Below are positions 32,521-40,192 of a stretch of DNA of 64,000 nucleotides, in pieces. Every line of letters begins with the position of its first letter. The first letter of the stretch is position 1. The notes beneath the pieces are model-generated. The model made no database searches. It was given only the letters and a program-made list of their open reading frames with translations, and was not told the origin of the DNA. A program made the position numbers and the translations under genes. The DNA is taken from assembly GCA_041871065.1 (NCBI GenBank), contig CP168942.1, forward strand, positions 746,501 to 810,500. Reading direction: 5' to 3'. Origin of the DNA: Weissella confusa (GTDB lineage: Bacteria; Bacillota; Bacilli; Lactobacillales; Lactobacillaceae).

Positions 32521-32542
32521 GTTTACTTCAATCGTAAACAAA

Positions 32543-32619
32543 CCAAGCTCCCCGGCAGGCATTACCCTGCTTAGGTTCCATGGGTATTATCTCAGCCGTA
32601 ACGGCACCCCAGCTTGTTT
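32543..32619 (-). ncRNA. TPP riboswitch (THI element)
   Basis: Read on the minus strand, the conserved core is complete: GCTGGGGTGCC, CTGAGATAATACCC, GAACCT and GGGTAATGCCTGCC, closing with GGGGAGCTT. This matches the TPP aptamer (pyrimidine-sensing CUGAGA helix and diphosphate-sensing arm). It is followed by a terminator and the ykoEDC operon. Confidence 0.95.
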
Positions 32620-32633
32620 GATTCGTTAACACA

Positions 32634-37385: not shown

Positions 37386-37476
37386 AAAATTCTAATAAAT
37401 TTCGCAGGTTACGCACTGAAAAAATACCGCTGGTTTGATATACTTGCCTCATCATATAGATATGGGGGATATTAAC

Positions 37477-37962
37477 ATGGTAGCTGAATTGAATTTGGAA
37501 ATTGAACCAATGCATTTTCAACGTATTTTGGTAGGTGTGGATGAATCACAACAAGGTCACGTGGCTTTGGCGAACGCGATTCACCAAGCTGTTGAGGACG
37601 ACGCAAAGTTGATCATCGCATCAATTTTGGAATTGGGGGAGTTGTCAGCAGTTGATGTGTTGAGCTTGCCAACTGTTCAAGCGGTTGAAGATCAATTGGA
37701 AGCCAACTTGGCGCGTTACAAGGAATATGCAGAAGCACACGGTGTTAAGGATGTTGAAGTTGTCTTTGACAGCGGTCAACGTGCCGGTGAAGTGTTGGTT
37801 GAAGAAATCGCACCACGCGTTAACGCTGACATGATTATTGTTGGGGCGCACTCAAAGAAGGGGTGGTGGGAATCATTGGGTTCTCAAGCCGTTTACGTTG
37901 CGCGTCACGCCAAGGTATCATCAATGATCGCCCGTTGCGATTTGGAAGAGCCTAAGAAGTAA
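37477..37962 (+). CDS. Universal stress protein (UspA family)
   Basis: A 161-residue single-domain Usp. RILVGVDESQQGHVAL begins the core, and the C-terminal MIIVGAHSKKGWWESLGSQA has the G-x2-G/G-x9-G-(S/T) ATP-loop pattern only in part (GAHSKKG, LGSQA), so nucleotide binding is likely but not certain. ATG 37477 is chosen because MVAEL follows a GGGGGAT site; the frame could extend to 37435. It is a monocistronic stress gene between YehS and a GNAT enzyme. Confidence 0.85.
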   Translation: MVAELNLEIEPMHFQRILVGVDESQQGHVALANAIHQAVEDDAKLIIASILELGELSAVDVLSLPTVQAVEDQLEANLARYKEYAEAHGVKDVEVVFDSGQRAGEVLVEEIAPRVNADMIIVGAHSKKGWWESLGSQAVYVARHAKVSSMIARCDLEEPKK

Positions 37963-38500: not shown

Positions 38501-38537
38501 GAAAAGCACATGGCGACATGTGCTTTTCTTATTTTTT
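38501..38537 (+). terminator. Terminator after the GNAT gene
   Basis: A perfect 12-bp stem GAAAAGCACATG with CATGTGCTTTTC, then TTATTTTTT. Confidence 0.9.
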
Positions 38538-38601
38538 GGAAGTGAAAACCTAAAAAATATCATACGTATGAATAATTTTTGACTTATGTGAAAAAATACT
38601 A

Positions 38602-38630
38602 TTGCTTAAAAAACATTCACCCTGTATACT
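38602..38630 (+). promoter_or_regulatory. mntH promoter
   Basis: TTGCTT (38602-38607) and TATACT (38625-38630) are 17 bp apart. The predicted start of transcription, about 38637, falls exactly at the first base-paired bases of the structured leader that follows. Confidence 0.75.
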
Positions 38631-38637
38631 AACTCTT

Positions 38638-38803
38638 GCGGGTGAGGAGCCCCGGTTAAGTGAAAGTCATAAGCCTTCAATCTGAAAAGATTGGACGAAA
38701 TCCTTTATGAATTTTATTTAGCACTATGAACTAAGATAAAAGTTAATAGTACACTGGGGAAAACCTCGCTATGAGTTTTTAAAACATAGTAGGAGGGTTT
38801 GTC
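38638..38803 (+). ncRNA. Structured mntH leader, candidate riboswitch of unrecognised class
   Basis: A three-way-junction fold can be drawn. P1: GAGG 38644-38647 with CCTC 38764-38767 and CCCCGGT 38650-38656 with ACTGGGG 38753-38759. P2: TCATAAG 38667-38673 with CTTTATGA 38703-38710, topped by CAATC/GATTG. P3: ACTAT 38723-38727 with ATAGT 38746-38750, plus AACT/AGTT. The alternative fold pairs AAACCTC 38761-38767 with the Shine-Dalgarno region GAGGGGTTT-like bases 38793-38800 and CTATG 38769-38773 with CATAG 38785-38789. CCTC cannot do both, so the element looks like a translational switch. It lacks the conserved cores of the yybP-ykoY and M-box aptamers as I know them. Ligand unknown. Confidence 0.6.
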
Positions 38804-40192
38804 ATGTCTGAAGAAATGACAAAGAAGCCAGGCTTCGTCGGCGATGCAACTGCTGACGCAAGTTTGGGCGATGTGAACGGTTCTGTGGAGGTACCAAAGA
38901 ACGGTTCATTCTGGCGTAAGTTGTGGGCCTTTTCAGGTCCTGGGGCCTTGGTTGCCGTGGGTTACATGGATCCAGGTAACTGGGTAACGTCTGTTGCGGG
39001 TGGTGCGAACTATCACTACACGCTTTTGTCAGTCGTATTGGTGTCATCATTGATCGCAATGATGTTGCAATACATGGCTGGTAAGTTGGGAATGGTTAAG
39101 CGCGAAGACTTGGCCCAAGCTACACGAGCTCGTACGAGTAAGTCAGGTGGTTTCGTTCTTTGGATTATCACTGAGTTGGCGTTGATTGCCACTGATATTG
39201 CCGAAGTTATCGGAGGAGCAATTGCGTTGCACTTGCTGTTCGGTTGGTCAATGATTGCGTCTGTTTTGACGACAGCGTTTGACGTATTCCTGCTATTGTT
39301 GTTGATGCGTTTCGGTTTCCGTAAGATTGAAGCAATTGTTATTACATTGATTTTGACGATTTTGGTTATCTTCGGTTACTTGGTTATCTCATCAAACCCA
39401 GACATCGTTGCGATGTTGGGTGGATACGTACCACAATTGCAAGCTGTAAGCACGCACGCACCAAAGGGTGTTGATTCACCATTGTTGATGACGTTGGGTA
39501 TTGTCGGTGCGACGGTTATGCCGCACAATTTGTACTTGCACTCATCAGTTTCACAAACACGTAAGATTAACCGTGAGAACAAGGCTGAATTGAAGGAAGC
39601 CGTTCGCTTCATGACATGGGATTCAAACATTCAATTGACGTTGGCCTTCGTTGTTAACTCAATGTTGTTGATCTTGGGAGCATCATTGTTCTTCGGTCAC
39701 GCTGATTCAGTTGGAACGTTTGGTCAAATGTACTCAGCTTTGTCAGATAGCAAGGTTGCTGGTGCAATTGCGTCACCAATCTTGTCAACGTTGTTCGCCG
39801 TTGCGTTGTTGGCGTCAGGTCAAAACTCAACGATTACAGGAACGTTGACTGGTGAAGTTGTCATGGCTGGATTCTTGCGTTTGAAGATTCCAATGTGGGC
39901 CCGTCGTGTGATTACACGTGGATTGGCATTGGCACCAGTTATCGCTTTTACATTGATTTACGGTGGTGATGAGTCAAAGTTGGACGTCCTATTGATTAAC
40001 TCGCAAGTCTTCCTATCAATTGCTTTGCCATTTGCGATGGCACCATTGATTTTGTTCACATCATCAAAGAAGGTGATGGGTGAAGACTTCGTTAACCCTA
40101 AGTGGATGACAACGGTTGCTTGGCTAGTATTTATCGTTTTGACTGGATTGAACATCCAATTGATCGTCGAAACGGTTCGTAACATGTTCTAA
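38804..40192 (+). CDS. mntH: Nramp-family Mn2+ (Fe2+) transporter MntH
   Basis: A 462-residue proton-coupled divalent metal importer with about 11 helices after a 40-residue polar N-terminus. Canonical metal-binding motifs are present: DPGN (residues 56-59, helix 1) and MPH in [14 protein letters not shown] (about residue 231, helix 6), which marks it as a Mn/Fe Nramp and not an Nramp-related Mg transporter. [19 protein letters not shown] is the conserved helix-10 region. AGGAGG lies 7 bases before the ATG and can be sequestered by the leader hairpin. It is a single-gene unit with its own promoter and terminator. Lactic acid bacteria accumulate Mn as superoxide protection. Confidence 0.93.

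Follow-up and report, generated by a model that had tools for sequence, protein, structure and literature searches.

A conserved structured RNA in the mntH leader of Weissella and related Lactobacillaceae, a candidate translational switch

The mntH locus and the folds of its leader

The window, a stretch of 64,000 nucleotides of Weissella confusa DNA, carries on its forward strand the gene mntH (38804-40192, ATG at 38804-38806), which encodes an Nramp-family metal importer of 462 amino acids (PF01566, NF001923) and is preceded by the Shine-Dalgarno (SD) sequence AGGAGG at 38791-38796. A universal-stress-protein-like gene (PF00582) lies nearby at 37435-37962. The putative promoter, recognized by its sequence on the same strand (38602-38630), consists of TTGCTT (38602-38607) and TATACT (38625-38630) with a spacing of 17 bp. 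The preliminary description rated it as good; it is only fair, with three of the six consensus bases in the -35 element and no entry in the list from a consensus promoter scan. A terminator-like site follows directly after the upstream gene (38501-38528), outside the leader, and the scan found none on the forward strand between the promoter and mntH. Elsewhere in the window, a TPP riboswitch was detected on the reverse strand at 32532-32621 (63.1 bits, above the gathering score).

The leader region 38633-38810 has a predicted folding energy of -49.4 kcal/mol, compared with -36.9 (sd 3.9) for 200 dinucleotide shuffles (z = -3.2), one of which was as good. The outer helix, P1, joins a 5' strand at 38642-38656, composed of GTGAGG (38642-38647, containing GAGG at 38644-38647) and CCCCGGT (38650-38656), to a 3' strand at 38753-38769, composed of ACTGGGG (38753-38759) and CCTCGC (38764-38769); both strands are assigned from the swap tests described below, the latter also from a duplex calculation. 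Within CCTCGC, the segment CCTC (38764-38767) doubles as an anti-SD sequence. The hairpin core P2 (38655-38722), delineated by the fold, the covariance model and pair statistics, has a stem formed by GTTAAGTGAAA / TTTTATTTAGC, by TCATAAGC / G+TTTATGA with the bulge AAATCC (38698-38703), and by TTCAATCT / AGATTGGA. This arm, which the covariance model matches at 38652-38723, is the most conserved part of the leader and is common to other genera; the preliminary description had overlooked it. The P3 arm (38723-38750), taken from the minimum-energy fold, pairs ACTAT (38723-38727) with ATAGT (38746-38750) and, further inside, AACT with AGTT. All of these elements are on the forward strand.

An alternative forward-strand hairpin (38764-38796), obtained by duplex calculation, would hide the SD by pairing CCTC (38764-38767) with GAGG (38793-38796) and GCTATG (38768-38773) with CATAGT (38785-38790). 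The promoter hexamers, the strands of P1 and its 7-bp helix, the anti-SD and SD segments and the start codon had been placed correctly in the preliminary description. It had also paired the whole of AAACCTC (38761-38767) with GAGGGTTT (38793-38800), extended by CTATG (38769-38773) and CATAG (38785-38789). Since the first two segments are 7 and 8 nt long, such a pairing needs a bulge; CCTC/GAGG, GCTATG/CATAGT and a few flanking pairs stand, and the full-length pairing without a bulge does not.

Conservation, genomic context and novelty of the element

A blastn search with the leader against 100 relatives gave matches in 21 genomes, and the part common to the distant relatives was the P2 arm. 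One matching locus (L026) was set aside because it looks like coding sequence, and another (L025) is broken inside the core. An alignment (A1) and a covariance model (R1) were built from 19 cores. R1 matched 69 places in 58 of 397 Lactobacillaceae genomes, belonging to 7 of 40 genera; in the window's own genome it matched three places, weak matches aside, and in an order-wide sample it matched five of 295 genomes, all within two of the seven genera. A pattern scan of the genomes gave 47 stretches from Weissella, Leuconostoc, Fructobacillus, Convivina, Paucilactobacillus oligofermentans and two unclassified records. The conservation in orthologous leaders on which the preliminary description had made its proposal depend is therefore present: the element is kept across seven genera, Weissella and Leuconostoc included. 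With a further model (R2), 398 genomes of the phylum yielded the window's own genome and one match inside an ORF (E = 0.005), taken as chance, and the plasmids searched gave no match to the element. Of the extra weak R2 matches, the two in G148 and the single one in G018 also look like chance; further weak ones occurred in G009 and G012 (E = 0.38 and 0.44), and many weak matches were true copies read on the opposite strand. The stricter filters applied in searches of more than 40 genomes may have let weak copies escape. Weissella-like short leaders were seen in genus g3 (L085, L088 and L131, the last from P. oligofermentans), where mntH was possibly transferred together with its leader.

The P2 core was assessed on 47 distinct cores, in which 93.3% of the cells pair and 11 of 26 pairs show changes on both sides, a number reached by none of 500 shuffles; the covariation score was 0.182, compared with 0.035-0.095 when the partners were slid. 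This alignment was fitted to the R1 structure and is hence biased in favour of P2. In the unfitted alignment A1, 93.9% of the cells pair, the covariation score is 0.196 against at most 0.086, and the six pairs with both-sided changes were reached by 55 of 500 shuffles. Seven of the 19 pairs in the long P2 stem are invariant over the 47 cores. Comparison among leaders, proposed in the preliminary description for all three helices, supported P1 (see below) and P2 and showed P3 to vary in sequence from leader to leader. Conserved helices with compensatory changes, as expected of a cis-regulatory structured RNA, are found in both P2 and P1.

We examined the genes downstream of 70 copies, comprising 66 of the 69 R1 places and four more, of which G023 contributed two and G003 and G210 one each. 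An mntH homologue follows 66 copies, with a downstream protein identity of 63-100%. Three copies (L063, L069 and L070) have none: the gene after L063 encodes a Dyp-type peroxidase (PF20628, PF04261, TIGR01413), and at L069 and L070 the element lies, as at L063, before a near-identical beginning of a Dyp-type peroxidase gene. The peroxidase-linked copy thus occurs in the window's own genome (G000:C1:293360-293427; L063 2861-2928), where its loop is altered, and in two related genomes. The remaining copy (L003) is on a rearranged contig; in its genome (G003, 66% complete) the contigs of both L003 and L025 seem rearranged or broken close to mntH. Two of the four Nramp-like genes in the window's own genome carry the element. 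The place of the element upstream of functionally related genes is therefore consistent.

The internal loop of P2 falls into a main class and variants. The sequence AAGCYTN is opposite an AYGAMANNY-type sequence in 44 of 52 aligned cores, and AYGAAA is found in 43 of these 44. Of the eight variants, five belong to tandem mntH paralogues of Fructobacillus-type genomes, one to a second mntH (L064) and two to the peroxidase gene; every genome with a variant also carries a main-class copy. The bulge, although conserved, is altered as a block in paralogous copies within one genome. The loop variants of the paralogues and of the peroxidase gene hint at a changed specificity.

No family of Rfam 15 (4227 families) matched the window leader or the leaders of 20 related loci at the gathering score. 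In a permissive scan of 38560-38860, the only two matches were weak (E = 4 and 8.2) and belonged to unrelated families, one from HIV and one fungal. The preliminary description had seen neither a yybP-ykoY nor an M-box core in the leader, in agreement with this result, and the novelty that it had made conditional on an Rfam search is retained. M-box (ykoK) and NRAMP-related Mg riboswitches are RNA leaders on divalent-metal importers. Leaders of this kind on Nramp-related Mg importers are treated in the available part of PMC4072509; they resemble the present element in the kind of gene controlled, but neither the window leader nor the 20 related loci gave an Rfam match to them. The Lacto-usp RNA (RF01710) is an RNA motif of Lactobacillales (PMC2864571), and mntH has usp-like neighbours in the window and at L064, L065 and L196, those at the three loci being judged by sequence likeness alone. 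However, there is no RF01710 match, and the element precedes mntH or the Dyp-type peroxidase gene. In the titles and abstract openings found, from a literature that included little subscription material, no mntH leader RNA is named in these bacteria, and none of the searched terms is present in PMC11109978 and PMC8632094. The case for novelty comes mainly from Rfam. The element and its conservation are firm, and together with the comparative support for P1 and P2 these results indicate that the mntH leader is almost certainly a new cis-regulatory RNA, as the preliminary description had proposed, forming a structured class of its own with P1 outermost, a conserved P2 core and a variable P3 arm.

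The P1 helix and its overlap with the anti-SD segment

For the analysis of P1, the 70 copies were reduced to 66 leaders (L003 and L004 have no clear start, and two leaders are identical to others) and then to 65 by leaving out L093, whose start was wrongly called. Thinning by identity gave 47 leaders for first-pass duplex tests and 42 for the swap test; 36 leaders were hand-chosen in four groups, and 15 short leaders were chosen for shuffles of the SD pairing. The first-pass tests, which were noisy, gave P ≤ 0.05 for P1 in 17 of 47 leaders and for the anti-SD pairing in seven, with overlap of the two in 32. In the swap test, 24 nt upstream of the core plus four core bases were paired with the 48 nt before the SD region. 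Native combinations had a mean of -17.3 kcal/mol and swapped ones -11.5, and none of 20,000 permutations was as low; 10 of the 42 natives were in the best 5%. When the swaps were confined to the four groups (36 leaders), again none of 20,000 permutations was as low overall. Within the single groups the counts were 50, 1634, 1638 and 8 of 20,000, so that neither Fructobacillus group reaches significance by itself. P1 varies in sequence among leaders, yet its native strands pair better than swapped ones. In 13 Leuconostoc-type leaders, 86.8% of the P1 cells pair, compared with 33-57% when slid, and the covariation score exceeds those of all 500 shuffles; there are two both-sided pairs, a number equalled by 275 of the 500. 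No pairs were counted on the alignment of Weissella leaders (A5), in which P1 is misaligned owing to linkers of unequal length.

The preliminary description had held P1 and the SD pairing to be mutually exclusive. The overlap that this requires is common and lends it support: the best anti-SD 9-mer falls inside the P1 3' strand in 29 of the 36 leaders, compared with 11.6 expected from length, although the kinship of the leaders makes the comparison less than strict. The SD pairing itself was less distinct from chance, since in only two of the 15 short leaders was the pairing in the 3' part matched by at most five of 100 shuffles, and the effect of swapping on the anti-SD pairing was small among the 42 leaders. 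Four leaders from one Weissella subgroup (the first copy of L064, L075, L095 and L100) have a predicted P1 3' strand that stops 80-97 nt short of the start codon and does not adjoin the SD. From these comparisons of sequences, P1 and P2 emerge as conserved helices, and the P1 3' strand usually holds the best predicted anti-SD segment. A translational switch between P1 and the anti-SD pairing is quite probable. In Leuconostoc-type leaders such as L092, the start codon was seen by eye to lie within a short inverted repeat (TAGAATGGATAATTCTA), perhaps a further control of initiation.

P1 can grow into the GUU that sits at the P2 base, by at least two bases in 29 of the 42 leaders and by at least three in 21, so that P1 and P2 can exchange strands, and we infer that this exchange may be the sensing step.

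Metal supply, regulator content and interpretation

The DtxR-family domain PF02742 is present in 292 of the 397 Lactobacillaceae genomes. On the assumption that the searches for the element and for the domain drew identical genomes, it is present in 14 of the 58 genomes with the element, among them the window's own, compared with 278 of 339 others (Fisher P = 8e-18, uncorrected for kinship); a DtxR/MntR-family regulator is thus missing from 44 of the former and 61 of the latter. Within the window's genus the domain is present in 11 of 19 genomes with the element and in 7 of 7 without it (P = 0.06). This pattern is not explained by a lack of mntH, which 34 of the 35 genomes tested possess. In one genome (G006), a divergent DtxR-family gene is the neighbour of an mntH that lacks the element. 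Control of mntH by MntR has been predicted for Streptococcaceae (PMC3616900). Repression by MntR/DtxR plausibly does the same job, the adjustment of Mn import, but through a protein acting at DNA rather than an RNA leader. Gene content and the regulator census together suggest that the leader may sense metal.

In the mechanism that we propose, formation of P1 would leave the SD free and mntH would be translated, whereas opening of P1 would let its 3' strand pair with the SD and translation would drop. The core would sense the metal status of the cell, for which Mn2+ is the most likely cue and Fe2+, or a signal linked to these ions, a possible one. The puzzle of direction raised in the preliminary description stands, as a leader that is ON upon P1 formation works opposite to the simplest Mn OFF switch. 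In many leaders, however, the conserved GUU is open to invasion by the top of P1, so that a ligand that closes P2 could loosen P1; metal excess may disfavour P1 in this way, perhaps through closure of the P2 base, whose GUU otherwise can extend P1.

P2 might instead be bound by an RNA-binding protein or an RNase responsive to metal or stress, which would then influence the P1/SD switch or the stability of the mRNA. The seven invariant pairs of the long P2 stem, which are more constant than a helix requires, would suit such a site. The blockwise change of the bulge in paralogous copies of one genome is rather what a ligand pocket would be expected to show, and we regard a protein site as unlikely. 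It is still less likely that the leader is constitutive or temperature-dependent, with P1 and P2 stabilizing the 5' end of the mRNA or setting translation without sensing a ligand. P1 is indeed at the probable 5' end of the RNA and the support for the anti-SD pairing is weak leader by leader; the invariant internal loop, the paralogue-specific loop variants and the association with metal importers are, however, unexpected for such a leader.

A leader-peptide or mini-ORF attenuator is very improbable. The P2 3' strand does contain ATG-N9-stop (38707-38721, M-N-F-I), and a four-codon ORF starting with ATG or TTG is found at that place in 70 of 70 copies, but its third codon varies freely (ATT, TTT, TAT, AAT, CTT and GTT among others), no SD was seen ahead of it in main-class copies, and both its start and its stop fall in nearly invariant P2 pairs; we judged it to be a by-product of the stem. 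The yybP-ykoY element is an RNA leader tied to manganese genes that usually switches on exporters. Rfam itself names this family (RF00080) 'Manganese', and the likely metal and the kind of target gene are alike, although here the gene is an importer. The family is absent from the permissive scan of the leader, has no gathering-score match in the 20 related loci, and was found in none of 32 genomes (29 of them element-bearing) compared with five of 14 control genomes, so that a divergent yybP-ykoY member is hardly credible.

We favour a metal-responsive leader. That it is a translational switch serving metal homeostasis, whatever its ligand, is likely, and direct binding of a divalent metal is our leading guess, with about an even chance of being right. 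The fullest form of the proposal is more tentative and, taken jointly, falls somewhat short of an even chance: a Mn2+ (or Fe2+) riboswitch class acting as an OFF switch on Nramp importers, which replaced MntR in Leuconostoc, Fructobacillus, Convivina and part of Weissella, and whose altered sensor loops on paralogous importers and the Dyp-type peroxidase gene are tuned to another metal or affinity.

The Mn uptake of lactobacilli matters for food protection, in which depletion of free manganese is a major bioprotective mechanism (PMC7082583, available in part). If the proposal is true, it would place a sensing RNA on the Mn importer and would explain how Mn import is controlled in lactic acid bacteria without a DtxR/MntR-family regulator, and the natural loop variants within single genomes would offer material for studying how the specificity of an RNA changes.
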